From: Clostridia bacterium
Lineage (GTDB): Bacteria; Bacillota; Clostridia; Oscillospirales; CAG-272
Direction: 5' to 3'
Length of the DNA stretch: 64,000 bases
NCBI GenBank assembly: GCA_017547755.1
Contig: JAFYOX010000024.1
Location: 34,287 to 98,286 of the forward strand
Each line of letters starts with the position of its first letter. Position 1 is the first letter of the stretch. A program made the position numbers and the translations under genes. The notes below the pieces were generated by a model, which was not told the origin of the DNA, searched no databases, and worked only from the letters and a program-made list of their open reading frames with translations. Of the stretch, positions 32,265 to 49,490 are shown in pieces.

Positions 32265-32270
32265 TTATCT

Positions 32271-32837: not shown

Positions 32838-32873
32838 GCTGCTGTTCCGCCTTTTCGTTCAAATCTGTTATGG

Positions 32874-32902: not shown

Positions 32903-32931
32903 TCTGTATTGTGAAGTTTTCAGCAAAACAG

Positions 32932-32960: not shown

Positions 32961-33023
32961 GTGTACAACAAACCAAAGCGAATTCCGGACACAAATCCGG
33001 CAGGGAAGCAAAGGAGAAATATC

Positions 33024-34049: not shown

Positions 34050-34053
34050 TACA

Positions 34054-35058
34054 ATGACAAAGAAAATCAAAATCGCGCAGGTCGGCACCAACAGCATGAC
34101 CCATGCCAGCCAGACCTTTACAAGCATCCGCAAACAGAACGATCTCTTTGATCTGATCGGTATTGCGGAACCCATTGACGAATGGAAACATAATCTGAAC
34201 GCCCCTTTATACCGGGATACACCGCAGTATACCGTGGATGAACTTCTGCAGATGGACGACCTTGACGCGGTCGCTGTTGAAACCAATGAAGAATTCATGA
34301 CGAAATACGCCCAGCTCTTCGCAGATAAGGGCATCGCCGTCCATATGGACAAGCCCGGTTCTCCCGATCATGCGGCTTTTGCAAAACTCGCACGGACACT
34401 GCAGGAGAAAAATCTTCCGTTCCATCTGGGATATATGTACCGGTTCAATCCGCTGATCCTGCGGGCATACGAAAAAATCGCCGCCGGAGAACTCGGAGAA
34501 ATCCTTTCCGTGGAAGCACAGATGAACTGCCTCCACAATGATCACAACCGCGCATGGCTCGGCAGACATCCCGGCGGAATGATGTATTATCTCGGCTGTC
34601 ATCTGGTCGATCTGGTGTACCGTCTGCAGGGAATGCCGGACAAAGTCATGCCCATGAACATGGCAACCGGAATCGGTGGGATCTCCTCGGAAGACTACGG
34701 ATTTGTGGTTCTGCAGTACCGCAGAGGAATCTCGTTCGTAAAAACCTCCGCCGCGGAAGTCAACGGATTCGCCAGACGTCAGCTGGTGATCACCGGAACA
34801 AAGGGTACCGTGGAAATCAAGCCGCTCGAAATGTTCAGCGGAGAAGGGCAGAAAACCTACGCCAGATATACCACCGCTGCCATGGCGACCTCCTGGGCGG
34901 ACTGCTCCGAAGCATGGGAAACCGAAGAATACGACCGGTATGATGCCATGATGCGGAATTTTGCCGCTCTGGTACGCGGAGAATACGCAAATCCCTACGA
35001 TTATGATTATGAAATCGCGCTTCACGGCCTGCTGATGATGTGCTGCGGCGCAGAATGA
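34054..35058 (+). CDS. Gfo/Idh/MocA-family oxidoreductase
   Basis: 334 residues from ATG 34054, 4 bases after the MDR stop, with CTGGAGGAC as ribosome binding site inside that gene. The N-terminal dinucleotide fold begins IKIAQVGTNSMTHAS. VHMDKPGSPDHAAF is the family's EKP-type motif, here DKP, with the catalytic Lys. GYMYRFNPLILRA and LGCHLVDLVYRL fit the C-terminal substrate domain, where His is the usual proton relay. Members oxidise or reduce sugars and inositols, sometimes creating 3-keto-glycosides. Coupled genes on both sides indicate one pathway. Confidence 0.88.
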   Translation: MTKKIKIAQVGTNSMTHASQTFTSIRKQNDLFDLIGIAEPIDEWKHNLNAPLYRDTPQYTVDELLQMDDLDAVAVETNEEFMTKYAQLFADKGIAVHMDKPGSPDHAAFAKLARTLQEKNLPFHLGYMYRFNPLILRAYEKIAAGELGEILSVEAQMNCLHNDHNRAWLGRHPGGMMYYLGCHLVDLVYRLQGMPDKVMPMNMATGIGGISSEDYGFVVLQYRRGISFVKTSAAEVNGFARRQLVITGTKGTVEIKPLEMFSGEGQKTYARYTTAAMATSWADCSEAWETEEYDRYDAMMRNFAALVRGEYANPYDYDYEIALHGLLMMCCGAE

Positions 35059-35069
35059 GGAAACCAGTC

Positions 35070-36653
35070 ATGGAATTCAGAAAATATGTAAACTGCAATA
35101 CCTGTGATCTCGACCTTGCACTCCGGGAAGGGATGCGTCCCATGCAGACCTTCTTTGACCCTACCCGGGATCACCTGCCTTTCTTCGGCAACGAAATGGC
35201 ACCGCACTGCCATAATTCCCATCATCCGACCTTCAGCGCGGCACACATTCCCGGACGCTGGCTCACGGCACTCCTTCACGCCGAAGAAGTGACCGGCATC
35301 TCCGTTTCTCCCGAAGCTGTGGAACATCTGCGGAAATGGGCGTTTGCCACACTGGAAAAGCATCCCATCGGGTTCCCGGCGTGCATGGATTTTGACAAAA
35401 TGGAATTCATCGATGCCACCGACCTGCACAATCTCCGTGAAATTATGCACGCGCTGTCCGCTCTTGTGAAATGGCGGCAGGACGATCACGCCGGAGAACT
35501 TGCACTCGGAGTCATCCGTTCCCTGAACCGGTTCTTTGATTTTGAAACCGGAAAATTCGATGAAGAATCCTACCGCCGTGAAACGGGAGCCGGTGTAATG
35601 TATTCCTGCTGTGCACCGTCGGAAGGACTTCTGTTTCCCGTTCATTTCGGCCGCTATATCGGTCCTCTTGTGAAATTCTGGCGCGCATCCGGAGAACCCG
35701 CGGCTCTCGAACAGGCACTCCGTCTGAAGGATACCTGCTTCCGCCATATTCTTCTGGAAGACGGCGATTACGATGCCGTACGGTTCGGCAGTCATACCCA
35801 TTCGACCACCGCAATGATCTCTTCTCTGGCACAGCTCGGCGATGTCACAAATGATCCCGAAATCTTCCGGCGGATCCACGCCTTCTTCCAGAACGGATTG
35901 CGGAAAATCGCGCTCCCGTTCGGCTGGTGCATCGAAGGCAATCACCGGAACGATCTGGTCGGAGAGATCAACAATACCTCCGACATCATGGAAGCATGTC
36001 TCATTATGGGTAAGCACGGCTATCCCGGATATTACGCCATGGCAGAACAGATTCTCCGGGCACATTTCCTGCCCGCACAGCTTCTTGATCCCTGCTTTAT
36101 CCCCGAAGATGAGGACGAATCGCATGCGGATACCTACCGCATGGCAAGCCGTTCCGTGGGATCTTTCGGATTCCCCACACCGTACGGTCACGAAGATCAC
36201 CCCGGCGCATGGATCTCCTTTAACTGGGACATCGTCGGCGGCGGTGTGAACGGTCTCTGTGAAGCGTACAAAAGCTGCGGTATTGCCGAAAACGGTCTCC
36301 TCACGATTCCTCTGCACTTTGCGGCAGACCGCATCACCCATACGGCAACCGATCCTTACCGGAACAACGGTATCATGACAGTCACCCCCAAAACAGACAA
36401 TCTTCGGATGAAAATCCGTATTCCTGTCCGTGCTTCGGTCAAATCGGTCAACGTTCCGTTTACTGCAGATGGGGAATGGCTGTATCCCGCGCCTGTGAAG
36501 GCAGGGGAAGCCGTTCAAATCTCCTTTGCGTTTGAAACAACGGATATCACCTACGATTTCCGCGGCAAGCGGATTCGTTACCGCTGGCACGGTGAAGAAG
36601 TAACCGGCGCAGACAACGCCGACCGCCGCCTGTGCTGGTTTGAGTCAATCTGA
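35070..36653 (+). CDS. Six-hairpin protein with GH127-like C-terminal beta-sandwich, function unknown
   Basis: 527 residues from ATG 35070 behind GAGGAAACC. The N-terminal two thirds is helical and reads as an (alpha/alpha)6 toroid: HNSHHPTFSAAHIPGRWL, FPACMDFDKMEFIDATD and ETGAGVMYSCCAPSEGL are conserved-looking. The C-terminus (about 430-510) resembles the sandwich of GH127/DUF1680 proteins (MKIRIPVRASVKSVNVP). The Glu-Cys-Cys zinc cluster of GH127 is not present in recognisable form; only a CC pair occurs. Third gene of the MDR-Gfo operon, so it may be a glycosidase or isomerase acting on the oxidised sugar. I do not recognise the family. Confidence 0.6.
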   Translation: MEFRKYVNCNTCDLDLALREGMRPMQTFFDPTRDHLPFFGNEMAPHCHNSHHPTFSAAHIPGRWLTALLHAEEVTGISVSPEAVEHLRKWAFATLEKHPIGFPACMDFDKMEFIDATDLHNLREIMHALSALVKWRQDDHAGELALGVIRSLNRFFDFETGKFDEESYRRETGAGVMYSCCAPSEGLLFPVHFGRYIGPLVKFWRASGEPAALEQALRLKDTCFRHILLEDGDYDAVRFGSHTHSTTAMISSLAQLGDVTNDPEIFRRIHAFFQNGLRKIALPFGWCIEGNHRNDLVGEINNTSDIMEACLIMGKHGYPGYYAMAEQILRAHFLPAQLLDPCFIPEDEDESHADTYRMASRSVGSFGFPTPYGHEDHPGAWISFNWDIVGGGVNGLCEAYKSCGIAENGLLTIPLHFAADRITHTATDPYRNNGIMTVTPKTDNLRMKIRIPVRASVKSVNVPFTADGEWLYPAPVKAGEAVQISFAFETTDITYDFRGKRIRYRWHGEEVTGADNADRRLCWFESI

Positions 36654-36668
36654 ACATAAACAACATCT

Positions 36669-36696
36669 AAAAAGAGATCCCGCAGATCTCTTTTTT
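36669..36696. terminator. Bidirectional terminator
   Basis: AAAAAGAGATC (36669-36679) pairs with GATCTCTTTTT (36685-36695), loop CCGCA. It serves the six-hairpin gene (plus) and the AraC gene (minus). Confidence 0.92.
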
Positions 36697-36700
36697 GTAT

Positions 36701-37549
36701 TCAGTATTTCAGTTTCCGGAATTTGTTCGGAGTCATTCCGGTATTCTGCGAAAACGAATGAATGAAATTCGACTCACTGTTGAAGCCCACCGTTTCCGCA
36801 ATCCCGGAAATACTCATGTCCGTCTGATGCAGCAGTTCCTTCGCGCGGTTCAGGCGGGAAATCAGAATATATTCGTAGGGTGACAGTCCGGTCTGCTGTT
36901 TGAAGACCCGTGAAAAATGCGTACTGCTCATGTATACCTGATCCGCAAGTTCCTTGACGCTCATACGTTCACTCAGATGCAGAGAAACGTAATCCTTCAC
37001 ATCCTGGATCAGACGTTCATACCGTCCCGGCTGATTTCCGGACAAACCGTCCGCCGAAAGCAGTTCCATAAGAAGCTTGTACAGTTCCAGAGAAAGTGCG
37101 GCTTCCGTCATCGGACTTTCCCCGCGGATGGCATCAAAAATCCGGAACAGACTGTTTTCCATCCGCCGCGGATCCCGGCACCGCACCGTACTCCCCGCAG
37201 TACGTTCGATCTCATGATACAGACTCAGACAGTTGCTCCCGCTGAAATGTACCCAGATGGATTCAAACGAATCGTTGGTGTAGTATTCATGATCCCTGTA
37301 GCAGTCTAAGATCACAGTTTCTCCGGCATATGCGGTACTGTGCTTTCCGTCCTTCACATAAGTGAACGAACCGCGAAGGATATGCGTAATGAGCAGACTG
37401 TCATAATTGCTGCGGATCAGATGATATCCCCGGACGCAGAAAAAATGTCCCGCACTGCCGGGATAAAAATGAAGTTTTTTCGCAATTTGTGTGGGGGAAA
37501 AGAAATAGAGATCCGAGATATCCAGAACACCGTTTTCCGTTGATTTCAT
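36701..37549 (-). CDS. AraC-family transcriptional regulator, divergent from the GH29 operon
   Basis: 282 residues from ATG 37547-37549, preceded by GGAGGCGGTTTTTT. The N-terminal cupin-like domain (about 20-150) would sense a sugar: RGSFTYVKDGKHSTAYAGET. The C-terminal double helix-turn-helix (about 185-282) has MSVKELADQVYMSSTHFSRVF and the AraC signature GIAETVGFNSESNFIHSFSQ. It has its own consensus-like promoter and faces the six-gene sugar operon across 241 bases. The operon promoter has no good -35, as expected for an AraC-activated promoter. Most likely the activator of that operon; the inducer is inferred to be L-galactose or L-fucose. Confidence 0.9.
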   Translation of the reverse strand: MKSTENGVLDISDLYFFSPTQIAKKLHFYPGSAGHFFCVRGYHLIRSNYDSLLITHILRGSFTYVKDGKHSTAYAGETVILDCYRDHEYYTNDSFESIWVHFSGSNCLSLYHEIERTAGSTVRCRDPRRMENSLFRIFDAIRGESPMTEAALSLELYKLLMELLSADGLSGNQPGRYERLIQDVKDYVSLHLSERMSVKELADQVYMSSTHFSRVFKQQTGLSPYEYILISRLNRAKELLHQTDMSISGIAETVGFNSESNFIHSFSQNTGMTPNKFRKLKY

Positions 37550-37614
37550 AAAAAACCGCCTCCGTGATGAAAAACTCCAAATCAATCACCGTCATTGAAG
37601 TCTTTTATGTATAT

Positions 37615-37644
37615 ATTATAAGATATTTTCCTGTATATTGTCAA
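37615..37644 (-). promoter_or_regulatory. sigma-A promoter of the AraC gene
   Basis: Minus strand: TTGACA (37639-37644), 18-base spacer, TATAAT (37615-37620), 66 bases upstream of the ATG. Confidence 0.8.
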
Positions 37645-37734
37645 TAGAAATTCCGCAGACGGCGGCACATCGGATACGGTAGGATTTTGATATTTTGTGG
37701 TTGTTTTTCTCATGTAATTCCGTCATTGATACGA

Positions 37735-37740
37735 TATAAT
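37735..37740 (+). promoter_or_regulatory. -10 box of the GH29/L-galactose operon, weak -35
   Basis: TATAAT at 37735-37740 lies 50 bases before the ATG at 37791. At 17-18 bases upstream the sequence is ATGTAA/CATGTA, far from TTGACA, and there is no TG extension. This suggests dependence on an activator bound within 37645-37715. Confidence 0.6.
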
Positions 37741-37790
37741 GAAGACAGCTCACACGAACGTTTTATTTCTCTCAAAGAAAGGATCTCATT

Positions 37791-39209
37791 ATGGAAAACA
37801 ACTTCAACGCTTCCTTCGAATCTCTGTACAATTACAAAGTGCCGGATTGGTTCCGCGACGTCAAGTTCGGTATCTGGAGCCACTGGGGACCGCAGTCCGT
37901 TCCGATGTACGGCGACTGGTACGCAAAAAACATGTATATCGAAGGATCCGAACAGTACCGGTACCATGTACGCCATTATGGTCACCCGTCCAAGTTCGGT
38001 TACAAGGACATCTGTGCTCTGTGGAAAGCTGAAAAATTCGATGCAGACGAACTGATGGCACTGTACTACAGAGCGGGCGCTCGTTACTTTGTAGCACAGG
38101 CAACCCATCACGATCATTTCTTCAACTATGACTCCGACGTCAACCGCTTCAATTCCGTCAAAGTAGGTCCCGGACGCGATATCTGCGGCGAATGGAAAGC
38201 TGCTGCGGACAAGTACAATATGCCGTTCGGTCTGACGGAACATCTTGCGGCTTCCTTCTCCTGGTGGCACCACAACAAGGACTGCGACAAGACCGGTCCG
38301 TACGCAGGAGTTCCTTATGACGGAAACGATCCCGAATACCGTGATTTCTACTACGACAACTACGAACATACCACCGGACATTCTCCGTGGCTGACCGAAA
38401 ATGCCGACTTCCAGGATTACTGGCTGACTGCAGTCAAGGAAATGATCGATAAGTACCACCCGGATCTTCTGTATTCCGACAGCGAACTGCCCTTCGGCAA
38501 CGACGGATACGCACACGGTCTGGAAGCAGTTTCCTATTACTACAACGATTCCATCGCAAAGAACGGTTACAACAAGGCTGTCTACACGCAGAAGAACCGT
38601 GACGCGAAGATTTTCAAAGTCGGCGTTCTCGACATCGAAAAGAGCCAGCTCCCCGGCATTCAGGAAGATCCGTGGGAAACTGACACCTGCATCGGCAACT
38701 GGTTCTATGACGTCCGTCAGACCTATAAGAAGCCCGGTCATATCATCGAAATGCTGGTCGACATCATCTCCAAGAACGGTACCATGCTTCTCAACATCCT
38801 GCAGCGTCCCGACGGTACCATCGACGAATGGGAACGCTGGACTCTTGAAGAAATCGGTACCTGGTTCGACGTTGCCGCAGAAGGCGTCTACGCATCCAGA
38901 CCGTGGCGCGTATACGGAGAAGGGGAATCCAAGGTCATCATCGACGGTTTCCGTGAATCCGAAGTTGCATGGGGGCCCTCCGACTATCGCTTCACCTGCA
39001 AGGGCAAGGACGTTTACGCATTCATGATGTGCGCTCCGGAAAACCGCCGTGCAGTTCTCAAGTCCTTCGTGGAAGATACCGTCGAAAAGGTAACGCTTCT
39101 CGGTTACGGTGAAGTGCCGTTCGCACAGAATTTCGGTATTCTTACCGTATCTCTTCCCGAAAATCTTCCTACGCAGTACACCAACTGTCTGAAGGTCACC
39201 CTCGCATAA
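37791..39209 (+). CDS. GH29 alpha-L-fucosidase/alpha-L-galactosidase
   Basis: 472 residues, cytoplasmic. GH29 features in order: WFRDVKFGIWSHWG near the N-terminus, ARYFVAQATHHDHF, and the nucleophile D230 in PDLLYSDSELPF. LLNILQRPDGTIDEWE is the late barrel motif, followed by a C-terminal beta-sandwich (about 365-472). GH29 enzymes release alpha-L-fucose by retention, and some prefer or accept alpha-L-galactose, which differs only in its C6 hydroxyl. The downstream genes encode L-galactonate and altronate steps, so L-galactose is the better predicted product. First gene of a six-gene operon; AAAGGATCTCATT precedes the ATG. Confidence 0.92.
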   Translation: MENNFNASFESLYNYKVPDWFRDVKFGIWSHWGPQSVPMYGDWYAKNMYIEGSEQYRYHVRHYGHPSKFGYKDICALWKAEKFDADELMALYYRAGARYFVAQATHHDHFFNYDSDVNRFNSVKVGPGRDICGEWKAAADKYNMPFGLTEHLAASFSWWHHNKDCDKTGPYAGVPYDGNDPEYRDFYYDNYEHTTGHSPWLTENADFQDYWLTAVKEMIDKYHPDLLYSDSELPFGNDGYAHGLEAVSYYYNDSIAKNGYNKAVYTQKNRDAKIFKVGVLDIEKSQLPGIQEDPWETDTCIGNWFYDVRQTYKKPGHIIEMLVDIISKNGTMLLNILQRPDGTIDEWERWTLEEIGTWFDVAAEGVYASRPWRVYGEGESKVIIDGFRESEVAWGPSDYRFTCKGKDVYAFMMCAPENRRAVLKSFVEDTVEKVTLLGYGEVPFAQNFGILTVSLPENLPTQYTNCLKVTLA

Positions 39210-39219
39210 GGAGGAACTC

Positions 39220-40425
39220 ATGAAAACTTACGGTACATATTTTCAGAATGATCCGGCTCATCCTCTCCGTTACGGAGAGGTGAATCTGATCAATCCCCTG
39301 CGGAAGCGTCTGCGCGGAGAAGAAGAAAAGGAAGGCATTGCCGCTCATCCGGTCTTCTGCGGTTTCTGCGGAACGGACTACGAACTGATGCGCATGGGCA
39401 GAGACGGAAAACTCGGCGCAAAATTCCCGGCAGGCGAAAAACGTCTGATCAACGGTCACGAAGGTGTCGTCTGGGTTCCTTCCGAAAACCGCTTTGCCGT
39501 TGTTCTGATCCGCGGCGGCGACAGCTACGACCCGACCCGCTATACGGAAGACGAAACCTACTTCGAATATGGCTGTGACCAGGCGGACGGCATCTTCTGC
39601 GACAAGGGATATTTCCATCCGGATATGCTTCTGCGTCTTCCCGCACAGTATGACGGATGCACAAAGCTTCCTCTCTCTGCGGCAAAGCGTCTTTCCTTCG
39701 CGGATCCCTATGCCTGCGCCGTTTTCCAGCTTGAACGTATGGAAGACCTCGGTTCCGCGCACAATTTCCGTGTGGAAATGGCAAAACATAAGTGTTCCGA
39801 AGAAGAAGCACGCAAAATTGCAGAAAACAGCATCTTTGAAAAAACGGTTGTTTTCGGTCTCGGCATGACCGGTCTCTTTATGGCGGATCAGATCCGCCGC
39901 AGTCATCCGTCCGCGAACATCCTGTTCGTCGGCAGAAGTCCCGAAACCAGCCGCAAGGTCGTATTCTCCAAGGAAATCGCGCAGGCGGATTACCTCTGCA
40001 CCGACGGCATGAACGAAGACCAGACCGCAGCGGCGATCATCGAAGCACTCGGCGGACGTGCAACGCTCTTCATCGGATGCAGCGGCAGTGCTGTGGAACA
40101 CCGGATCGCGTTCGAAAAGAAAGTTCTCGGCTGCAACGGCATTTACAACAGCTTCTCCCTCGGACCGGTTGTCGGATTCGACACCATGCCGTTCGGCTTC
40201 GAAAACCATCTCATCTTTGCCTCCATCAATTTCCGTCAGTCCCACATGGAAAAGGCAATCGAAATTCTCGCCGAAAGCCGTTACGACGAAATCGTCGAAC
40301 TGATCGACCGTGATGAATTCACCCGCGATCCCATCGACGCCTACGAAAATAAAATTTACTGCAAGGGTGCGCCGCTGAAAACCGGCGTGATCTGGAACAA
40401 AGACTATATCGAGGAGGATCAGTGA
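39220..40425 (+). CDS. Sugar 1-dehydrogenase-like MDR (candidate L-galactose dehydrogenase)
   Basis: 401 residues of the glucose 1-dehydrogenase branch of the MDR superfamily. The catalytic zinc site reads FCGFCGTDYEL (C47, C50) and INGHEGVV (H80-E81), close to the CGTD...GHE of archaeal sugar dehydrogenases. VVFGLGMTGLFMADQI is the nucleotide-binding motif. The four-Cys structural lobe is absent. Family members oxidise the anomeric hydroxyl of aldoses to the lactone with NAD(P). Placed 10 bases after GH29 with AAGGAGGAACTC before its ATG. With the lactonase at the operon's end it would form the first two steps of a non-phosphorylating aldose pathway. Confidence 0.78.
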   Translation: MKTYGTYFQNDPAHPLRYGEVNLINPLRKRLRGEEEKEGIAAHPVFCGFCGTDYELMRMGRDGKLGAKFPAGEKRLINGHEGVVWVPSENRFAVVLIRGGDSYDPTRYTEDETYFEYGCDQADGIFCDKGYFHPDMLLRLPAQYDGCTKLPLSAAKRLSFADPYACAVFQLERMEDLGSAHNFRVEMAKHKCSEEEARKIAENSIFEKTVVFGLGMTGLFMADQIRRSHPSANILFVGRSPETSRKVVFSKEIAQADYLCTDGMNEDQTAAAIIEALGGRATLFIGCSGSAVEHRIAFEKKVLGCNGIYNSFSLGPVVGFDTMPFGFENHLIFASINFRQSHMEKAIEILAESRYDEIVELIDRDEFTRDPIDAYENKIYCKGAPLKTGVIWNKDYIEEDQ

Positions 40426-40426
40426 T

Positions 40427-41446
40427 ATGAAAGCCATCGTGATCCCGAAACCGTATGAAATCGAAATCCGCGATCTCCCCATGCCGGAAGTAAAAGAAGG
40501 CGAAGCCCTTCTTCGCGTCCGCTGTGTCGGGATCTGCGGAGCGGACGTTGCCTCCTACACCGGCAATCAGCCGTTTACCACCTATCCGCGTATCCCCGGA
40601 CATGAATTTTCTGCGGAAATCGTGGAAATTCCGGACAATGACAAGGGTCTGAAGCCGGGAGATATCGTTACCTGCAATCCCTACTTCAACTGCGGAACCT
40701 GCTATTCCTGCCGCCGCGGTCATGTCAACTGCTGTACCGACAACCAGACCATGGGCGTACAGCGCGACGGTGCGTTCTGCGAATACATCGCAATGCCGGT
40801 CGACCGTATTTTCCCCGGTATGGGACTGTCTCCGGAAGAACTCGCACTCATCGAACCGTTTTCCATCTCCCGTCACGCCGTTTCCCGTGCGGAAATCAAA
40901 CCGACGGACAATGTTCTGATCGTCGGTGCCGGCCCGATCGGTCTCTTCGCCCTTCTTGCGGCAAAGCATACGGCAGGCAGAATCGCCGTTGCGGACATCC
41001 TTGACAACCGCCTTGAACTCGCTTCCGCTTACGGTGCGGACAGTGTGATCAACACAAAAACCGGCGATCTCGCCGCATTCACGGAAGAATTCACCGACGG
41101 CAACGGCTTTGATGTCTGCATCGAAGCCTGCGGTCAGCCGGAAACCTTCCTGATGTGCATCGATCAGGCCGCATTCGCCGCAAACATTATCCTGATTGGC
41201 AACGGCAAGCGGGAAACCTCGTTTGTCCATTCCGTGATCCTCAAAAAAGAACTGAACATTTTCGGCAGCCGCAATGCTCTGAAGCAGGATTTCCTTGCCA
41301 ATATCGAACAGGTCGCCGCCGGAAAAACCGATGTCAATAAAATGGTCAGCGGTATCTACCCGATGGATCGCGCCATCGAAGCCTTTGAAGCGCTTGCGAA
41401 CAACAAGGGCGATCTCGCAAAACTGCTGATCCGGATCGGAGAATAA
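40427..41446 (+). CDS. Zinc-dependent dehydrogenase, L-galactonate 5-dehydrogenase (LgoD)-like
   Basis: 339 residues, matching LgoD/RspB-type length. Catalytic zinc ligands: C37 in VGICGADVASY and H59-E60 in IPGHEFSAE. Structural zinc lobe: C89, C92, C95, C103 in FNCGTCYSCRRGHVNCC. Rossmann motif VLIVGAGPIGLFALL. LgoD of Escherichia coli oxidises L-galactonate at C5 to D-tagaturonate, which UxaB reduces to D-altronate. UxaB and UxaA homologues follow directly here, which is why I favour that reaction. A sorbitol/xylitol or 2-keto-3-deoxyfuconate dehydrogenase role is the alternative. GAGGAGGATC lies inside the upstream gene; ATG follows its TGA by one base. Confidence 0.82.
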   Translation: MKAIVIPKPYEIEIRDLPMPEVKEGEALLRVRCVGICGADVASYTGNQPFTTYPRIPGHEFSAEIVEIPDNDKGLKPGDIVTCNPYFNCGTCYSCRRGHVNCCTDNQTMGVQRDGAFCEYIAMPVDRIFPGMGLSPEELALIEPFSISRHAVSRAEIKPTDNVLIVGAGPIGLFALLAAKHTAGRIAVADILDNRLELASAYGADSVINTKTGDLAAFTEEFTDGNGFDVCIEACGQPETFLMCIDQAAFAANIILIGNGKRETSFVHSVILKKELNIFGSRNALKQDFLANIEQVAAGKTDVNKMVSGIYPMDRAIEAFEALANNKGDLAKLLIRIGE

Positions 41447-41448
41447 TC

Positions 41449-42771
41449 ATGCGTGAAACTATAATTCAATTCGGAGAAGGTGTTTTTCTCCGCGGATTTG
41501 CCGACTATTTTCTGGATATTCTGAACAAACAGGGTCTTTACGACGGCAAAGCCGTCGTGATCCAGCCCCGTCCGGGCGGAAAAGTCAAGCCTCTGCAGGA
41601 ACAGGACTGCAAATACAACCTCTTCCTGCGCGGCATCCGTGACGGTGAAGCCGTATCGGAACAGTACACCATCGGCTCTGTCTCCCGCTGTATCGATCCG
41701 TATATTGCATACGACGAATTTACCGCACTGGCGGAAAATCCGGATTTCCGATTTGTCTTCTCCAACACTACGGAAGCCGGCATCGCATTCGATCCTTCCT
41801 GCCGTCCGGAAGACACTCCGTGTCTTTCGTTCCCGGGAAAAGTGACTCAGCTTCTTTACCGCCGGTACAAACTGGGGCTGAACGGCTTCATTTTCCTGCC
41901 GTGCGAACTGATCGACAACAACGGCGATGCTCTGAAGAACTGCGTTCTGCAGTACGCAGTTCACTGGAACCTTGAACCGGAATTTGCCGTCTGGGTAAAA
42001 GAAAAGAATATCTTTGCCAACACCCTCGTCGACCGGATCGTCACCGGATATCCGGAAGCCGAAAAAGACACGCTTCTTCCTCTCGCCGGATTTGACGACA
42101 AGTGCATGAACACCGCAGAACTGTTCGGACTCTGGGTTATCGAAGGCAATTTCGAAAACGAACTTCCTCTGCAGAAAGCCGGACTTCCCGTTGTCTGGAC
42201 GGACGATGTATCGCCTTACAAAAAGCGCAAGGTACGCGTCCTTAACGGCGCACATACCTCTACCGTTTTCCCGGCACTCCTCTGCGGTGTCGAAACGGTA
42301 GGAGAAGCCATGAACGACACGCTGATCCGCGAGTTTCTGGGAAAAAATCTGTACGGATATATTCTCCCGATGCTCGGTGACACCGAAGAAAACAGAGAAT
42401 TCGCAAAAGCTGTACTGGATCGCTTCTCGAATCCGTACATCCGTCATCTCTGGAAGGCAATTTCACTCAACTCCGTCAGCAAATTCACCGTCCGCGTTCT
42501 TCCTACCATGACAGACTGGCGGAAGCAGAACGGTGAATGGCCGAAGAGTCTGGTATTCTCTCTGGCGTGCCTGCTGAAATATTATAAAGAACAGGAAGTA
42601 TCCGACAGCCCCGAAGCTGCCGCATATATCCTTGACAACGACATCCCCGCCATTCTTGCCAACTGTGACCTGTGGGGATGTGATCTCTCGGAATGCACCG
42701 ATGCGGTTCTCGAAGGAATGGAACGTCTCGCAAAAGACGCACGTGAGGCAGTACGATGGGCAATTTCGTAA
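41449..42771 (+). CDS. uxaB: Tagaturonate reductase (altronate oxidoreductase) UxaB-like
   Basis: 440 residues of the polyol-specific long-chain dehydrogenase family, close to UxaB length. The N-terminal Rossmann region starts IIQFGEGVFLRGFADYF, then FIFLPCELIDNNGDALK. The catalytic motif is KKRKVRVLNGAHTSTVFPA, with the Lys-x5-Asn-x2-His arrangement of mannitol dehydrogenase/tagaturonate reductase. It reduces D-tagaturonate to D-altronate with NADH. In galacturonate catabolism UxaC feeds it, but no UxaC is present; here the LgoD-like enzyme immediately upstream could supply tagaturonate. The last 16 bases overlap uxaA, so expression is coupled. Confidence 0.88.
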   Translation: MRETIIQFGEGVFLRGFADYFLDILNKQGLYDGKAVVIQPRPGGKVKPLQEQDCKYNLFLRGIRDGEAVSEQYTIGSVSRCIDPYIAYDEFTALAENPDFRFVFSNTTEAGIAFDPSCRPEDTPCLSFPGKVTQLLYRRYKLGLNGFIFLPCELIDNNGDALKNCVLQYAVHWNLEPEFAVWVKEKNIFANTLVDRIVTGYPEAEKDTLLPLAGFDDKCMNTAELFGLWVIEGNFENELPLQKAGLPVVWTDDVSPYKKRKVRVLNGAHTSTVFPALLCGVETVGEAMNDTLIREFLGKNLYGYILPMLGDTEENREFAKAVLDRFSNPYIRHLWKAISLNSVSKFTVRVLPTMTDWRKQNGEWPKSLVFSLACLLKYYKEQEVSDSPEAAAYILDNDIPAILANCDLWGCDLSECTDAVLEGMERLAKDAREAVRWAIS

Positions 42772-44129
42772 TTCATCCCGACGATACCGTCGAGATCTGT
42801 CTTGAAAACGGACAGAAATATGCCCGGCGCCGAATCGAGGCGGGAGAAGCCGTCATCAAATACGGCTATCCGATCGGAAAAGCCGTGACCGACATCGAAC
42901 AGGGAGAGCTTGTTCACTCGCATAATCTGAAAACTCTCCTCGACGGTGTTCTGGAATACACGTATACCCCGAAATTCCGTGACCGGCATGTCGATTCCGA
43001 TGAAACCATCCTCGCCTACGTCCGCGAAAACGGACAGATCGGCATCCGCAATGACGTTTGGATCATCAATACCGTCGGATGTGTGAACAAGACTGCCGAA
43101 ATTCTCAGCCGGGAAACCGGTGCGTTCGCATTTCCGCATCCGTACGGATGCAGTCAGCTCGGCGAAGATTCCGTCCGTACGATGCAGATCCTGTGCGGAC
43201 TGATCCGTCATCCCAATGCGGGAGGCGTTCTTGTTCTCGGACTCGGCTGCGAAAACAACAACATCGACGAGATGAAAAAAGTCCTTGGAGACTATGATCC
43301 CCGGCGCATCCGTTTTCTGAATGTACAGGACTGCGAAGACGAGATCGCGGAAGGGAAGCGCATCATCGGCGAACTGCAGGCGATCTGCGCGGATGACCGG
43401 CGCGAACCGGTTCCCGTATCCCGACTGGTGATCGGTCTCAAATGCGGGGGCAGCGACGGCTATTCCGGCATCACCGCCAATCCTCTGGCAGGACGGATCT
43501 GCGACCGTCATACAGCGGCAGGCGGCAGTGCCGTACTGACCGAGGTACCGGAAATGTTCGGCGCGGAACAAATCCTTATGGAACGCTGTGCGACCCGCGA
43601 AATCTTCGACAAAACCGTACGGCTCATCAACGATTATAAGAACTATTATATCGCTCACAACCAGCCGGTAAGCGAAAATCCTTCTCCCGGAAACCGTGCG
43701 GGCGGCATTACCACACTTGAAGAAAAATCGCTCGGCTGTGTTCAGAAAGGCGGAAGTGCGGTCGTCACGGATGTGCTCGATTACGGCGATACCGTCCGGA
43801 AACCGGGGCTGAATCTGCTGAACGGTCCCGGCAACGATATCGTCGCGATCACCAATCTGACTGCCGCCGGATGCCATCTGATCCTGTTCACCACCGGACG
43901 CGGAACACCTCTCGGTGCACCGGTTCCCACATTAAAAATCGCCACCAATACGGCTCTTGCGGGAAAAAAGTCCCATTGGATCGACTTTGATGCCCAGCAG
44001 ATCCTGGAGCGCGACTGTACCGACGATCTCTGGCAGTACATCCGTGAAGTCGCTGAAGGAAAGCCGAGCCGGAACGAACAGTGCGGCTACCGCGAAATTG
44101 CAATTTTCAAAGACGGAGTGACCTTGTAA
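42756..44129 (+). CDS. uxaA: Altronate dehydratase UxaA-like
   Basis: 457 residues, slightly shorter than E. coli UxaA. The N-terminal SAF domain (about 5-75) is followed by the D-galactarate dehydratase/altronate hydrolase domain with GQIGIRNDVWIINTVGCVN, FPHPYGCSQLGEDSVRT, GLGCENNNIDEM, GLKCGGSDGYSGITANPLAG and GRGTPLGAPVPTLKIATN. The Cys and His residues match the iron-binding pattern of the family. It dehydrates D-altronate to 2-keto-3-deoxy-D-gluconate. Homologues (split) also occur in the L-fucose locus of Campylobacter jejuni, so fuconate is an alternative substrate. It overlaps uxaB by 16 bases, and its stop TAA shares one base with the next ATG (TAATG). Confidence 0.88.
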   Translation: MGNFVIHPDDTVEICLENGQKYARRRIEAGEAVIKYGYPIGKAVTDIEQGELVHSHNLKTLLDGVLEYTYTPKFRDRHVDSDETILAYVRENGQIGIRNDVWIINTVGCVNKTAEILSRETGAFAFPHPYGCSQLGEDSVRTMQILCGLIRHPNAGGVLVLGLGCENNNIDEMKKVLGDYDPRRIRFLNVQDCEDEIAEGKRIIGELQAICADDRREPVPVSRLVIGLKCGGSDGYSGITANPLAGRICDRHTAAGGSAVLTEVPEMFGAEQILMERCATREIFDKTVRLINDYKNYYIAHNQPVSENPSPGNRAGGITTLEEKSLGCVQKGGSAVVTDVLDYGDTVRKPGLNLLNGPGNDIVAITNLTAAGCHLILFTTGRGTPLGAPVPTLKIATNTALAGKKSHWIDFDAQQILERDCTDDLWQYIREVAEGKPSRNEQCGYREIAIFKDGVTL

Positions 44130-45001
44130 TGTATATTATCGACGCTCACGCACACCTCTGGCTGCGCCAGAACGGAAAAGTCGACGGCAGAGATGTCTTC
44201 CCGGTCGGCAACGGAAAGAGCAATTTCGGCGGCTCGGTACGCCAGATGATGCCGCCGTACATGACCGACGACGCCAATCTTGCCGAACGTTTTCTGGCAA
44301 ACATGGATTACGCACAGGTTTCCGCCGCCGTTATCACACAGGAGGAGATCGACGGAAATCAGGACGATTATCTGCTGACCGTCCGTCAGAAATGGCCGGA
44401 TCGTTTCCGGATCTGCAGCCTGTATGAAGAAAACAAACCCTTCCGTACAGAAGGGTTTGACGGGATCAAGCTATGCGCCGGACGTCTGCCCACTGCCGAT
44501 CTCACACGCCACGCAGAAGTTTTTGAACGTGCCGCAAAGGAAGGGAAGTTTATTTCCATCGACCTTGCGGACGGCGATCTTCAGACCGGTTCTCTCGAAG
44601 AAATGATCCGTCAGTATCCCGATCTGCGGATCGCTGTCGGTCATTTCGGTATGGTGACCCGTCCCGGATGGCTCGAACAGATCAGACTGGCGCGCTATCC
44701 GAACGTCTTCATCGAAAGCGGCGGGATCACGTGGCTGTTCAACGAACAGTTCTATCCTTATCCGGACGCGGTTCGTGCCGTCCGGGAAGCAGCAGATATC
44801 TGCGGGATGGACAAACTCATGTGGGGCAGCGATTATCCCCGAACCATGGTGGAGATCACCTACAAAATGAGTTATGACTTCCTGTTAAAGAGCAAAGAAC
44901 TGACCGTAGCCGAAAAAGAAGCCTTCCTTGCCGGAAATGCCGTAAAATTCTATGCTTTCGATTCTCTGCATACCTGCGAAGCAATTCCGAATATGCTATA
45001 A
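44129..45001 (+). CDS. COG3618-type amidohydrolase, probable L-galactono/L-fucono-lactonase
   Basis: 290 residues from ATG 44129, overlapping the uxaA stop by one base. Metal-site residues: IIDAHAHLW at the N-terminus, FISIDLADGD, IAVGHFGMV and the catalytic Asp in LMWGSDYPRTM. This matches the lactonase branch of the amidohydrolase superfamily, whose members open L-fucono-1,5- and L-galactono-lactones made by aldose dehydrogenases. It is the last gene of the operon and supplies the step between the aldose dehydrogenase and the LgoD-like enzyme. GGAGTGACCTT is a modest ribosome binding site inside uxaA. A terminator follows within 15 bases. Confidence 0.85.
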   Translation: MYIIDAHAHLWLRQNGKVDGRDVFPVGNGKSNFGGSVRQMMPPYMTDDANLAERFLANMDYAQVSAAVITQEEIDGNQDDYLLTVRQKWPDRFRICSLYEENKPFRTEGFDGIKLCAGRLPTADLTRHAEVFERAAKEGKFISIDLADGDLQTGSLEEMIRQYPDLRIAVGHFGMVTRPGWLEQIRLARYPNVFIESGGITWLFNEQFYPYPDAVRAVREAADICGMDKLMWGSDYPRTMVEITYKMSYDFLLKSKELTVAEKEAFLAGNAVKFYAFDSLHTCEAIPNML

Positions 45002-45013
45002 CTATATTTCAAA

Positions 45014-45047
45014 CAAAGCTGTCTCTTATGCGGACAGCTTTGTTTTT
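45014..45047 (+). terminator. Rho-independent terminator of the six-gene operon
   Basis: CAAAGCTGTC (45014-45023) pairs with GACAGCTTTG (45033-45042), followed by TTTTT. It defines the operon end. Confidence 0.9.
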
Positions 45048-45068
45048 ACAGACTTTCCCATAAGCATC

Positions 45069-45097
45069 TTGCCGATTATCCAAAAAAGTGATATAAT
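45069..45097 (+). promoter_or_regulatory. sigma-A promoter of the metallophosphoesterase gene
   Basis: TTGCCG (45069-45074), 17-base spacer, TATAAT (45092-45097), only 27 bases upstream of the ATG at 45124. Confidence 0.78.
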
Positions 45098-45123
45098 AGT
45101 ATACACAAAAAGGGGGATGCCCT

Positions 45124-45828
45124 ATGATTTTTTATACCGGAGACATCCATGGTTCGGGAAAAGCACTCTTCCAATGGTGTACCGAACAGAAACTGACGGA
45201 AAACGACACCGTAATTCTGCTCGGCGACGTCGGTGCAAACTATTACGGCGGCGACTGGGACAAAAATCTGAAGACTCAGTTTTCCCGACAAGCCCCCACA
45301 TTCCTCTGCATCCACGGAAATCACGAAATCCGTCCGGCCAATCTTCCGACCTACCGCACCATGGAATGGAACGGCGGCACGGTATGGTATGAAGAAGCCT
45401 TCCCGAATCTGCTGTTTGCCAAAGACGGAGAAATCTACGATCTGGAAGGAAAACGGCATATCGCCATCGGCGGTGCCTACAGTGTGGACAAGCATTACCG
45501 CCTGAAAAACAAAATGCCGTGGTGGGTAGACGAACAGCCGAGCGACGCGATCAAAGAATATGTGGAACAGCAGCTGAAAAACAATAAGATCGATATCATT
45601 CTGTCCCATACCTGTCCGCATAAATATATCCCCACGGAAGCCTTTCTTCCGTCCGTCAATCAGAACACCGTAGATTCCAAAACAGAACGCTGGTTAGACA
45701 CCATTGAAGAAAACACCGGATATTCCGCCTGGTTCTGCGGACACTGGCATATTGACAAACGGATCGACCGGATGCACTTTCTGTTCCACGGGATCGAATC
45801 CGCCAGCTTCCCGGAAGCTGCGGAATGA
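45124..45828 (+). CDS. Calcineurin-like metallophosphoesterase
   Basis: 234 residues. Motifs for a di-metal centre are FYTGDIHGSG, VILLGDVGANY, CIHGNHEIRP, IILSHTCPH and WFCGHWHID. This fits a small cytoplasmic phosphoesterase of PF00149. AAAGGGGGATGCCCT precedes the ATG; the GGGGGATGCCCT segment is itself a short inverted repeat. Short 5' leader from a good promoter. It is separate from the sugar operon before it. The substrate is unknown. Confidence 0.85.
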   Translation: MIFYTGDIHGSGKALFQWCTEQKLTENDTVILLGDVGANYYGGDWDKNLKTQFSRQAPTFLCIHGNHEIRPANLPTYRTMEWNGGTVWYEEAFPNLLFAKDGEIYDLEGKRHIAIGGAYSVDKHYRLKNKMPWWVDEQPSDAIKEYVEQQLKNNKIDIILSHTCPHKYIPTEAFLPSVNQNTVDSKTERWLDTIEENTGYSAWFCGHWHIDKRIDRMHFLFHGIESASFPEAAE

Positions 45829-45870
45829 TCCCGCAGACTCCGAAACCATTTCCAGATAAAAGGAGACATC

Positions 45871-46623
45871 ATGTCCTGTACTCTCATCACATTCAGTCCT
45901 ACGGGAAGTACCGAAAGAACCGCCCGGATTCTTGCCTCTGCCATTGCGGAACACTGGGAGACAATTGACCTGCTGAAACCCGTTTCCGATCTTTTATTCT
46001 CTGCCGACGACCTCTGCCTTGTGGCACTGCCGTCCTACGGCGGAAGAATTCCCACTTTATCTGCCGAACGTCTCCGTTCCATCCATGCAGACGGTACCAG
46101 AGCGGTCCTGCTCTGCATATACGGCAATCGTGCTTACGAAGACACACTCAGCGAACTGCAGGATCTTCTGGAAGAACAGGGATTTATCTGCGTTGCCGCC
46201 GCGGCGGCGATTGCCGAACATTCGATTTTCCGCGAATTCGGAGCAGGCAGACCCGATAATGCCGATATTGCCGAACTGAACCTCTTCGGCGAAAAAATCA
46301 GAGAACGTCTTGCCGCCCCCAATGCCGGATCTTTGACCGTTCCCGGCGCACACGGCAGCTATAAACCGTACACAAACTCCGCGTTTGTTCCTGCGGAAAC
46401 CGATGCGTGCGTAAACTGCGGAACCTGCCGGGCAGAATGTCCCACGGATGCCATCGGCAATACACCGGCAGACATTGATCCCACACGCTGTATCAAATGT
46501 ATGCGCTGTGTCTCCGTATGCCCTACCGGAGCAAGACGTCCCGAACCGAAACTTCTGGCACCCCTGTACGAACGTCTGAAACCGCTGTGCACCGGCCGCA
46601 AGGCAAACGAGCTGTTCCTGTAA
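45871..46623 (+). CDS. EFR1-family protein: flavodoxin-like domain plus two [4Fe-4S] clusters
   Basis: 250 residues. The N-terminal flavodoxin-like domain (about 1-155) binds FMN with the FSPTGSTERTA loop. The C-terminus has two ferredoxin-type motifs: CVNCGTCRAEC (C180, C183, C186, C190) and CIKCMRCVSVC (C207, C210, C213, C217), each followed by Pro. This architecture is the EFR1 family, widespread in anaerobic Bacillota, probably an intracellular electron carrier. AAAGGAGACATC precedes the ATG. The nitroreductase 64 bases downstream could be an electron acceptor partner. Confidence 0.9.
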   Translation: MSCTLITFSPTGSTERTARILASAIAEHWETIDLLKPVSDLLFSADDLCLVALPSYGGRIPTLSAERLRSIHADGTRAVLLCIYGNRAYEDTLSELQDLLEEQGFICVAAAAAIAEHSIFREFGAGRPDNADIAELNLFGEKIRERLAAPNAGSLTVPGAHGSYKPYTNSAFVPAETDACVNCGTCRAECPTDAIGNTPADIDPTRCIKCMRCVSVCPTGARRPEPKLLAPLYERLKPLCTGRKANELFL

Positions 46624-46687
46624 GCATAACAATCCTGTCCGGAAAACCAATTCCCGGAATCCGAAGAAATAAAATAAGGAGTTCCTC

Positions 46688-47218
46688 ATGAATTTCACGC
46701 AAATTGCAGAAAACCGTCAGTCCTGCCGCAGTTATGATCCCACAAAACCGGTGGAACAGGAAAAACTCGACCGGATCCTCGCTTCCGCCCGTCTCGCACC
46801 GTCCGCCTGCAACGGTCAGCCGTACCACATCACCGTATGCAAGGGAAAGGCTGCCGCAGATGTCGCCAAAGCGGTGCAGGGTATGGGCATGAACAAATTT
46901 GCGTCCGATGCACCGGTGATGCTGGTCCTCTCGGAAAAGCCGTATGTTGCGACCGCCGGTCTCGGCGCAAAACTCAAAGGCATCGACTACCGCTCCATTG
47001 ATATCGGCATTCTGTCGGCATATATCACCGCGGAAGCCACGGCACAGGGGCTCGGCACCTGCATTCTCGGATGGCTGGATGACGATGCCATCCGTAAGAT
47101 CTGTCATCTGGACGGCGCTGTACGTCTTGTCATCACGCTGGGATATGCGAAGGAAGATGACAAGCTCCGTTCCAAAAAACGCAAGGATCTGGATACCTTA
47201 GTCAGCACCGTTGAATAA
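46688..47218 (+). CDS. Nitroreductase-family flavoprotein
   Basis: 176 residues, short form of the family. ENRQSCRSYDPTKPV is the FMN-phosphate-binding start (R-x-S-x-R type), LAPSACNGQPYH binds the flavin, and AQGLGTCILGWLDDD and LVITLGYAKEDD are typical later motifs. Such enzymes reduce nitro compounds, quinones or other substrates with FMN and NAD(P)H or ferredoxin. AATAAGGAGTTCCTC precedes the ATG. It probably shares a transcript with the EFR1 gene and ends at a hairpin terminator. Confidence 0.9.
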   Translation: MNFTQIAENRQSCRSYDPTKPVEQEKLDRILASARLAPSACNGQPYHITVCKGKAAADVAKAVQGMGMNKFASDAPVMLVLSEKPYVATAGLGAKLKGIDYRSIDIGILSAYITAEATAQGLGTCILGWLDDDAIRKICHLDGAVRLVITLGYAKEDDKLRSKKRKDLDTLVSTVE

Positions 47219-47237
47219 TCCTTTCCGCAGTTTTTCG

Positions 47238-47276
47238 AATCTCCGCAGGACGACTTCCGTTCATGCGGAGATTTTT
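47238..47276 (+). terminator. Rho-independent terminator after the nitroreductase
   Basis: AATCTCCGCA (47238-47247) pairs with TGCGGAGATT (47264-47273) with the T-run through 47276. Confidence 0.82.
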
Positions 47277-47366
47277 CGTCAGCTTCCGGTATTCCCGAAG
47301 AAACAGCAGGACAGCAAGAATTATGTAAACAAATCCATGAAAATCTGTTATTCTGTTTCTGAAGAA

Positions 47367-47380
47367 AGGAGGATGCTCCT
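47367..47380 (+). promoter_or_regulatory. Shine-Dalgarno inside a small hairpin
   Basis: AGGAG-GATG-CTCCT ends directly before the ATG at 47381. The ribosome binding site can pair with CTCCT (5 bp, 4-base loop), which could limit translation of the AraC-GNAT gene. The stem is short, so the effect is uncertain. Confidence 0.4.
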
Positions 47381-48232
47381 ATGGAAAATCCTGCAGTGGC
47401 GAACATTGAAATCGTCATAGAATATATCGAAAATCATCTGAATGACAAACTGACACTGGAAACCGTCGCGGAAGCCGTACATTTTTCAAAATATCATCTG
47501 CACCGGATGTTCACGGAAACCACGGGCATGACCATCCACGACTATATCCAGCGACGTCAGCTGACCGAAGCCGCAAAACTTCTTGTTTTCTCCGACAAAC
47601 CGATCATCGACATTGCATTTCTCTGCGGCTATGAAAGCCAGCAGGCGTTTTCTGCAGCCTTTAAATCCATGTACAAACTTCCGCCGGCAGAATACCGTGA
47701 AAACTGCATTTTTTATCCTCTGCAGCTGCGTTTTTCTCTGTATCGGAAGAATGCCGGATGCGGTTTTGAAAAAAGTGACATCCGCCCTGCAACTCCGGAC
47801 GATCTTCCCGCATGGATGGAGCTGATGCGTCTGGTCATCGACGGCTATCCGGTGATGGATGAGACCGACTACCAAAACAATCTCATCCGGTGCATCGCCG
47901 AGAAAAGAGCCCTTGTTCTGGAAGACGGCAGTACCATGATCGGCGCTATGATGTTCTCGTACGACAGCGGTTCCATTGAGTTTCTGGGAATCCATCCGCA
48001 ATACCGCAGAAAAGGGATCCAGAAACTGTTTCTGGATGTCCTTCTGGAAGTCTATCTTCCCGGACGCGAAATCTGCATGACAACCTTCCGGGAAGGAGAC
48101 AAAGCCGATACCGGATACCGCAAACTGCTGAAACAGCTCGGATTTGCGGAAAGGGAACTGCTGGTGGAGTTCGGTTACCCAACCCAGCGCTTCGTTTATC
48201 CGCCCGATCGTGAGCAGAAGGAGGAAACATAA
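47381..48232 (+). CDS. AraC-type DNA-binding domain fused to a GNAT acetyltransferase domain
   Basis: 283 residues. Residues 1-110 form a complete AraC double helix-turn-helix placed at the N-terminus: LTLETVAEAVHFSKYHLHRMF and DIAFLCGYESQQAFSAAFKS. Residues about 130-270 read as a GNAT fold: DIRPATPDDLPAWMELM at strand 1 and IEFLGIHPQYRRKGIQKLF with the acetyl-CoA loop (Q/R-x-x-G-x/A). A regulator whose effector domain is an acetyltransferase may sense acetyl-CoA or a small amine. It overlaps the operon with the MFS exporter that starts one base after its stop, so it probably controls that exporter. Known from other Clostridia but unstudied as far as I know. Confidence 0.82.
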   Translation: MENPAVANIEIVIEYIENHLNDKLTLETVAEAVHFSKYHLHRMFTETTGMTIHDYIQRRQLTEAAKLLVFSDKPIIDIAFLCGYESQQAFSAAFKSMYKLPPAEYRENCIFYPLQLRFSLYRKNAGCGFEKSDIRPATPDDLPAWMELMRLVIDGYPVMDETDYQNNLIRCIAEKRALVLEDGSTMIGAMMFSYDSGSIEFLGIHPQYRRKGIQKLFLDVLLEVYLPGREICMTTFREGDKADTGYRKLLKQLGFAERELLVEFGYPTQRFVYPPDREQKEET

Positions 48233-48233
48233 A

Positions 48234-49433
48234 ATGCCCGGAAAATATTCATGGAAAAAGCGTACGATCCTGTTTCTGATCAGTCAGTGTATCACTCTCT
48301 TCGGTTCCCAGATCGTCCAGATGGCGATCGTATGGTATGTCACCTTACGGACAGACAGCGGCATATGGGTCGCCGCTTTTTCGGTCTGCTCCAGTCTCCC
48401 GCAGTTTTTTGTTTCGTTCCCGGGTGGAGTTCTGGCAGACCGGTACAGCCGTAAATTCCTCATCATTGCCGCCGATGCTCTGATCGCCGCAGTCACTCTG
48501 CTCATGATCCTGTTCCTTCCATACATTACCGCCGAACCTCTTCTGCTGTCCGTCCTGCTGATTCTTTCGGTCATCCGCTCTGCCGGAGCCGGGATCCAGA
48601 CACCGGCAGTCAATGCGGTCCTTCCTCAGCTCGTCCCTGCGGAACAGCTCATGCGCTTCAACGGGATCAATGCCGCCATGCAGTCCGTCGTACAATTTTC
48701 CGCTCCGGCAGCCGCCGCAGTTCTCCTGACCGCCGGATCCCTGCGTTCGACGCTGACCGTCGATCTCCTGACAGCAGTTCTCGGTATCGGAGTACTTGCC
48801 GGAATCCCGCTTTCCGGACAGCAAAAAATCACGACAGAATCCCACGTTCTGTCGGATATGGGAAGCGGTATCCGGTATGCCGCTTCCAGTCATCCGATCC
48901 GTACTCTGCTGATCCTCTACAGTCTGTTTGTTTTCCTCACCGTACCGGCAGGTTACCTTTCCGGACTTCTCGTCAGCCGTGTTTACGGGGATACCTACTG
49001 GTATCTGACCGCCGTGGAACTTGCGGGTTTCGGCGGAATGCTCGCTGGAGGTCTGCTCATGAGTTTCACGGAAGGATTCCGGAGCCGCCGACATACGCTG
49101 ACCGCCGGTCTGACAATGTTCGGCGCAATGGCAGTCTGTATGGGCGCCTGCCGTCAGTTTGTTCTGTATCTTGCGTTCATGGCACTGTACGGCATTGCCT
49201 TGACCGCAGTACAGACGGTACTGACCACCATGCTTCAATCCAAAACAGATACCGCCATGCAGGGAAGGGTATTCGGGCTGATGAGCTCTCTCTATTCTGC
49301 CTGTTATCCGCTCGGGATGGTACTGTTCGGTCCCCTGGCAGATATCGTTCCGCTGCAGGGAATCATGATCCTGTCCGGAATCGCGCTGATTCTGACTGCC
49401 GCCGCAGCATTCCGCAGTCCGCATCTGGACTGA
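48234..49433 (+). CDS. MFS efflux transporter (macrolide/multidrug type)
   Basis: 399 residues from ATG 48234, one base after the AraC-GNAT stop, with AAGGAGGAAAC inside that gene. Twelve hydrophobic segments are visible, with the MFS loop motif GGVLADRYSRKFLI after helix 2 and a matching PLADIVPLQG near the end. The pattern resembles MefA/Lmr-type drug exporters. Close coupling with the AraC-GNAT protein suggests a regulated efflux module, possibly for a toxic compound that the GNAT domain recognises. The substrate is unknown. Confidence 0.85.
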   Translation: MPGKYSWKKRTILFLISQCITLFGSQIVQMAIVWYVTLRTDSGIWVAAFSVCSSLPQFFVSFPGGVLADRYSRKFLIIAADALIAAVTLLMILFLPYITAEPLLLSVLLILSVIRSAGAGIQTPAVNAVLPQLVPAEQLMRFNGINAAMQSVVQFSAPAAAAVLLTAGSLRSTLTVDLLTAVLGIGVLAGIPLSGQQKITTESHVLSDMGSGIRYAASSHPIRTLLILYSLFVFLTVPAGYLSGLLVSRVYGDTYWYLTAVELAGFGGMLAGGLLMSFTEGFRSRRHTLTAGLTMFGAMAVCMGACRQFVLYLAFMALYGIALTAVQTVLTTMLQSKTDTAMQGRVFGLMSSLYSACYPLGMVLFGPLADIVPLQGIMILSGIALILTAAAAFRSPHLD

Positions 49434-49453
49434 ATCGTTCTGCCGCACTACAA

Positions 49454-49481
49454 AAAGCACCCGAAAACATCCGGGTGCTTT
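49454..49481. terminator. Bidirectional terminator
   Basis: AAAGCACCCG (49454-49463) pairs with CGGGTGCTTT (49472-49481), with A-run and T-rich flanks. Shared by the MFS gene (plus) and the phosphoesterase gene (minus). Confidence 0.9.
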
Positions 49482-49490
49482 CATTTTTAC

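Follow-up and report, generated by a model that had tools for sequence, protein, structure and literature searches.

A 64,000-nt window of Clostridia bacterium DNA (the whole stretch analysed, positions 34,287 to 98,286 of contig JAFYOX010000024.1) contains at 37791-45001 a six-gene operon, which quite probably serves the breakdown of L-galactose. What is observed is the order of the genes, their families, their conservation and their co-occurrence; from these we infer every substrate. Proteins are named here by the first position of their gene. In the proposed course, the GH29 glycosidase (37791) would free terminal alpha-L-galactose, and oxidation at C1 by the 39220 protein would then give L-galactono-lactone. 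Once the 44129 amidohydrolase had opened the lactone ring to give L-galactonate, the 40427 enzyme would oxidize the latter at C5 to D-tagaturonate, UxaB would convert this to D-altronate, and UxaA would dehydrate D-altronate to 2-keto-3-deoxygluconate (KDG). A kinase and a 2-keto-3-deoxy-6-phosphogluconate (KDPG) aldolase encoded elsewhere would then yield pyruvate and glyceraldehyde 3-phosphate. An AraC-type protein is the probable activator of the operon.

The frame of the operon, as proposed in an earlier sequence-only reading, stands. Six plus-strand open reading frames (ORFs) lie in the window's ORF list where that reading had placed them, with intergenic distances of 10, 1, 2, -16 and -1 nt, an intrinsic terminator behind them and an AraC-type gene of their own in front (Table 1). 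Candidate genes for every step from the sugar to KDG are together in the operon, the dehydrogenase and the lactonase by weak homology, and so the operon, described as complete, is complete as far as KDG. Beyond it, the genome has one KDPG aldolase (Eda) match and a PfkB protein that resembles KDG kinase but stays below every cut-off, both encoded outside the operon, and no transporter is among the operon genes.

Family labels from that reading were borne out for UxaB, UxaA, the amidohydrolase and the glycosidase. UxaB passes model NF002969 with 497 bits over a cut-off of 359, and is 43% identical to E. coli UxaB. UxaA, a GarD/UxaA-type dehydratase with GD_AH domains, is 53% identical to E. coli UxaA and misses the galactarate dehydratase (GarD) cut-off (210.6 of 730.85 bits); its substrate altronate is predicted from similarity. 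Pfam and NCBIfam place the 40427 protein among medium-chain dehydrogenases/reductases (MDR) related to LgoD/RspB, the best NCBIfam model being IolM (210 of 450 bits). Its identity is 35.5% to E. coli LgoD (206 bits) versus 32.5% to RspB (172 bits), which makes it a candidate L-galactonate 5-dehydrogenase. The 44129 protein, presumably of COG3618, matches Pfam Amidohydro_2, and its 46-sequence profile (the window protein and 45 of 63 lactonases) matches 4i6k and 2ffi. With the metal and catalytic residues H7, H9, H172 and D235 invariant in the family alignment, it is a candidate L-galactono-lactonase.

Relatives of the 39220 protein were collected by a scan of GTDB contigs. The best 80 of 243 were used and, together with five loci from whole genomes, gave 85 loci. 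Omission of the window's own locus (L001) from neighbourhood counts left 84, two of which, L002 and L076, have identical DNA. Omission of L029 and L076, which by title or identical DNA come from the same genomes as L017 and G072, left 83 dehydrogenase genomes. The best 80 relatives come mostly from Clostridia that are uncultured or known from metagenome assemblies, and many of these are from ruminants or other herbivores. In samples of genomes, the dehydrogenase was found in one of 398 from the phylum (E 1e-20) and in 5 of 295 from the order (E 1e-15), the window's own genome included in each.

In 69 of the 78 loci long enough to show it, LgoD is the next gene after the dehydrogenase. Of the 58 loci with 6 kb downstream present, lactonase occurs in 55 and UxaB with UxaA in 37; all four partners are present in 36, and LgoD and lactonase alone in 16. 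Because of these 16 loci, the core is taken as dehydrogenase, LgoD and lactonase, which would take L-galactose to D-tagaturonate in three steps. GH29 occurs in 13 of the 84 loci, and in 6 of the 38 having 6 kb on both sides, and is thus an optional part of the locus. Neighbour families found in at least 4 loci (GH110-like, GH35, GH2, GH101-like and DUF5696) indicate no single glycan. In L063, a dehydrogenase relative stands without LgoD or lactonase, but the locus ends just downstream; in L042, a GH39-like gene follows the dehydrogenase.

Co-occurrence ties the operon to D-tagaturonate. UxaB is above cut-off in 80 of the 83 dehydrogenase genomes (42/42 and 38/41). In the order it is found in 40 of 197 genomes, three of which bear the dehydrogenase, leaving 37 of 194 others (Fisher p 1.8e-36, uncorrected for relatedness and with most of the 83 genomes draft). 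The search for UxaC and FucI covered 42 of the 83 genomes. UxaC is present in 40 of the 42, the window's own genome included, outside the operon, and in 0 of the 85 loci, many of which end at contig ends. The sequence-only reading had noted UxaC as missing, which holds for the operon and the related loci, but not for the genome; UxaC beside close homologues of the operon, which that reading had named as refuting it, was seen in none of these loci. UxaB is operon-borne in 26 of the 42 genomes; 25 of the 26 have no second one above cut-off, although further copies may be hidden in draft genomes, and 23 of these 25 also have UxaC. Because the operon UxaB is the sole one found in these 23 genomes with UxaC, it very probably handles, and reduces, D-tagaturonate. 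With UxaC encoded elsewhere there, D-tagaturonate is thus probably a node shared with the uronate route. In the other 16 genomes UxaB is outside the locus, near UxaC in G237, G099, G072 and G303.

At E 0.001 the 39220 protein falls into no family of Pfam or NCBIfam. Its 59-sequence profile (the window protein and 58 of the 83 dehydrogenases) matches glucose dehydrogenases only among solved structures at E 0.05: 2cd9 (1.6e-5), 2cdb (8.8e-5) and 2b5w (0.0025). Thus, of its label as a sugar-1-dehydrogenase-like MDR, a weak but specific likeness remains, and no family assignment. C50, T52, H80, E81 and E116, invariant in the family alignment, align where glucose dehydrogenase has C39, T41, H66, E67 and E114, which we take to be residues of catalytic-site type. 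Compared with the Sulfolobus and Haloferax enzymes (2cd9, 2b5w), these counterparts are kept, but inspection by eye shows none of the structural zinc lobe's cysteines in the family, and the E-values are just 1.6e-5 to 0.0025.

An invariant R239 behind the second Rossmann strand hints at NADP as cofactor, whereas the 40427 family has at the corresponding position an invariant D190, which hints at NAD. The 39220 protein is put forward as a candidate NADP-dependent L-galactose 1-dehydrogenase. It lacks a match to PF00248, the AKR fold of aldo-keto reductase (AKR) L-galactose dehydrogenases. Nine AKR matches exist elsewhere in the genome; among the eight scanned with NCBIfam none was called L-galactose dehydrogenase, the single match being to the L-glyceraldehyde 3-phosphate reductase subfamily, below cut-off. 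The first enzyme is apparently unrelated to known L-galactose dehydrogenases, such as the group of BVU_0219, LguA and plant GalDH, which we take to be aldo-keto reductases. LguA and LguD show the same NADP/NAD split (PMC12632266).

The GH29 protein (Pfam Alpha_L_fucos, E 2.7e-80) has as its closest solved structure BpGH29 (E 5e-77), with fucosidases next (1.5e-40). BpGH29 is a porphyran exo-alpha-L-galactosidase, and the structure 7snk, which carries a fucosidase label, belongs to this protein too (PMC12316285). The window protein is shorter (472 vs 597-599 aa) and divergent. The structure search covered this protein and 2 of the 11 GH29 proteins from other loci, those of L012 and L035, which also match BpGH29 best (E 6.5e-130 and 2.6e-111). 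The window GH29 is thus a candidate exo-alpha-L-galactosidase, judged by likeness to BpGH29.

That the substrate is L-galactose, not L-fucose, as the sequence-only reading had it, is still the best reading, though reached by inference, from operon conservation, UxaB co-occurrence, kinship to BpGH29 and the presence of FucI in 33 of the 42 genomes, which gives L-fucose its own isomerase route there. KDG kinase needs the C6 hydroxyl, and a 6-deoxy product could not be phosphorylated at C6; together with the shared D-tagaturonate node, this favours L-galactose. We regard as unlikely an oxidative L-fucose operon, in which L-fuconate would be made by the dehydrogenase and the lactonase, C5-epimerized by LgoD and UxaB, dehydrated by UxaA to a 6-deoxy keto-acid and cleaved unphosphorylated. 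In its favour, GH29 and FucU are families associated with fucose, the search of the window's own genome (75% complete) gave no FucI, and one characterized aldose dehydrogenase accepts D-arabinose, L-fucose and L-galactose (PMC6336799); on the other side are FucI in most of the genomes searched, the chemistry of the kinase, and the 23 genomes whose UxaC needs a tagaturonate reductase and in which the operon UxaB is the sole one found.

FucU (an L-fucose-type mutarotase, the assignment being checked on L058 alone) occurs in 10 of the 85 loci, once as a fragment, and FucI in 5 of the 85, which fits a galacto-configured L-sugar and does not distinguish L-fucose from L-galactose. FucI, FucU and the dehydrogenase are in a row on one strand at L058:4246-7683 and L057:2203-5625, where L-fucose and L-galactose genes have apparently merged. 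This arrangement, in which the dehydrogenase comes straight after FucI and FucU, would suit a dual-purpose operon for at least two sugars (L-galactose with L-fucose, D-arabinose or L-glucose), as would loose first enzymes like those of Luteolibacter, whose LguA and LguD work on the L-glucose and L-galactose series (PMC12632266); we give this little credence. It is very improbable that the operon serves chiefly D-galacturonate, with UxaC supplied from elsewhere and the other genes acting on an unrelated glycoside. That the operon UxaB is the sole one found in 23 of the 42 genomes, all of them with UxaC, agrees with such a role, but the 16 loci keeping dehydrogenase, LgoD and lactonase without UxaB and UxaA make these three the core, and none of the 85 loci has UxaC.

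Several observations weigh against assigning the operon to L-galactose. The window GH29 shares 32-36% identity with most GH29s of other loci (29-36% with fragments included), and reads GIWSHWG instead of GxFIHWG near the active site; a GH29 gene is present in just 13 of the 84 loci, and fucosidases are also in the sequence cluster of BpGH29 (PMC11189522). The tie of the 39220 protein to sugar dehydrogenases is weak, and its profile matches the LgoD-like profile with 52% probability (E 1.5e-4, 145 columns). The 44129 protein misses the fuconolactonase model (24 of 400 bits), and the UxaA/GarD family takes in L-fuconate and L-galactonate dehydratases (PMC6336799). The dehydrogenase stands without LgoD or lactonase in L041, L042 and L068, and three of the 83 genomes lack UxaB above cut-off, one of them having a partial match. 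Besides the window's own genome, G099 gave no FucI in the search, nor did G072, G237 and G273 (93-99% complete), and L-fucose could be the substrate in these genomes.

Where LgoD does not directly follow the dehydrogenase (9 loci), its usual place is taken in four by an iron-type alcohol dehydrogenase (iron-ADH) of the AraM/glycerol-1-phosphate-dehydrogenase kind, AraM being the name we presume (Table 1). UxaB is above cut-off in all four genomes. This suggests that L-galactonate is oxidized there by a second type of enzyme. LgoD is present further off in L038, and was not found within L041, L042, L068 and L083. A bolder proposal, which we hold to be evenly balanced, is that the 39220 family is a new, non-homologous kind of L-galactose 1-dehydrogenase, an MDR resembling glucose dehydrogenase, across herbivore-gut Clostridia, that the AraM-type enzyme of L050, L060, L072 and L079 is a new L-galactonate 5-dehydrogenase, and that the pathway was assembled independently of Bacteroides.

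The divergent AraC-type protein is the likely regulator of the operon; 10 of the 84 loci have a relative of it (47-60% identity) encoded ahead of the dehydrogenase in divergent orientation. Its own promoter is a perfect sigma-70 consensus at 37644-37615 on the minus strand, in a promoter scan that overall gave no excess of sites over shuffles. On the operon side, TATAAT is at 37735-37740 of the plus strand with no -35 listed, which would fit an activator-dependent promoter. An exact 10-nt repeat, CCGTCATTGA, occurs at 37589 and 37720. The operon's terminator is absent from the list of that same, simple scan. No Rfam element reached gathering score within the window, and at 30000-50000 no tandem repeats and no obvious composition break were found.

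Table 1. Features of the operon and of loci with an AraM-type enzyme
Feature	Sequence	Position	Strand	Basis
AraC-type transcriptional regulator, divergent to operon	window	36701..37585	-	Pfam HTH_18, AraC_binding
Divergent control region	window	37586..37790	.	promoter elements and 10-nt repeat
GH29 glycosidase, candidate exo-alpha-L-galactosidase	window	37791..39209	+	Pfam Alpha_L_fucos; BpGH29 best solved relative
Divergent MDR-like protein, candidate NADP-dependent L-galactose 1-dehydrogenase	window	39220..40425	+	profile match, invariant residues
Zinc MDR, candidate L-galactonate 5-dehydrogenase (LgoD-like)	window	40427..41446	+	identity to E. coli LgoD
Tagaturonate reductase UxaB	window	41449..42771	+	NF002969; E. 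coli UxaB identity
Altronate dehydratase UxaA	window	42756..44129	+	GD_AH domains; E. coli UxaA identity
Amidohydrolase, candidate L-galactono-lactonase	window	44129..45001	+	Amidohydro_2; profile match; invariant residues
Intrinsic terminator	window	45011..45045	+	-18.6 kcal/mol, z -6.25, 0/200 shuffles as good
AraM-type iron-ADH in LgoD's usual place	L050	10229-11584		
AraM-type iron-ADH in LgoD's usual place	L060	3712-5076		
AraM-type iron-ADH in LgoD's usual place	L072	4764-6119		
AraM-type iron-ADH in LgoD's usual place	L079	10226-11578		

The window is rich in other plant-glycan enzymes (alpha-L-arabinofuranosidase, GH127 twice, GH39, GH3 and AXE1). A GH95-type protein (24446-26545), which has no solved relative at E 1e-5, was considered as a second alpha-L-galactosidase and rejected, as its H-x-N-x-N motif (HLNYN, by eye) has the fucosidase-like His where BACOVA_03438 has Thr (PMC4491172). 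A 537-aa ORF (35040-36653) runs convergent to the regulator gene and matches nothing in Pfam even at E 0.1; genes for an MDR and a Gfo/Idh/MocA oxidoreductase come before it. A 990-aa plus-strand ORF (57211-60183), likewise with no Pfam match at E 0.1, faces an equally long ORF on the opposite strand.

In corn fibre, L-galactose occurs as a side-chain sugar of glucuronoarabinoxylan (PMC7176698, PMC4491172). If the proposed role is true, a dedicated operon in many Clostridia of ruminant and other herbivore guts would explain the fate of this sugar. It would also give sequence markers for L-galactose use, and add an enzyme family left nameless by annotation, that of the 39220 protein.

An L-galactose pathway of Bacteroides (Phocaeicola) vulgatus, BVU_0219/0220/0222, was reportedly described by Hobbs in 2014 and is said to include a lactonase as well. 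PMC12632266 names BVU_0219 and BVU_0222 for it; in common with the present operon are an aldose dehydrogenase, an L-galactonate dehydrogenase giving D-tagaturonate, and then the uronate pathway, but BVU_0219 groups with LguA and plant GalDH, whereas here an MDR-like protein is found instead. According to the same text, Luteolibacter LG18 has a cluster, lguABCDEF, that likewise unites genes for a dehydrogenase, an L-galactonate dehydrogenase, a tagaturonate reductase and an altronate dehydratase, and its divergent activator carries the annotation Btr. The first enzyme there falls into the plant GalDH group and the KDPG aldolase is encoded inside the cluster; the text mentions no lactonase and names no GH in the cluster. 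The LgoD/UxaB/UxaA route of E. coli, with homologues 35.5, 43 and 53% identical to the operon enzymes, has its genes at three places and starts from L-galactonate, whereas here one operon starts from the sugar. No report of an L-galactose pathway in Clostridia was recognized in the literature searched, which covered few subscription journals. Thus the pathway is known from Bacteroides and Luteolibacter, whereas the MDR-like first enzyme, the GH29 gene within the operon and the spread in Clostridia are, as far as our searches show, new.

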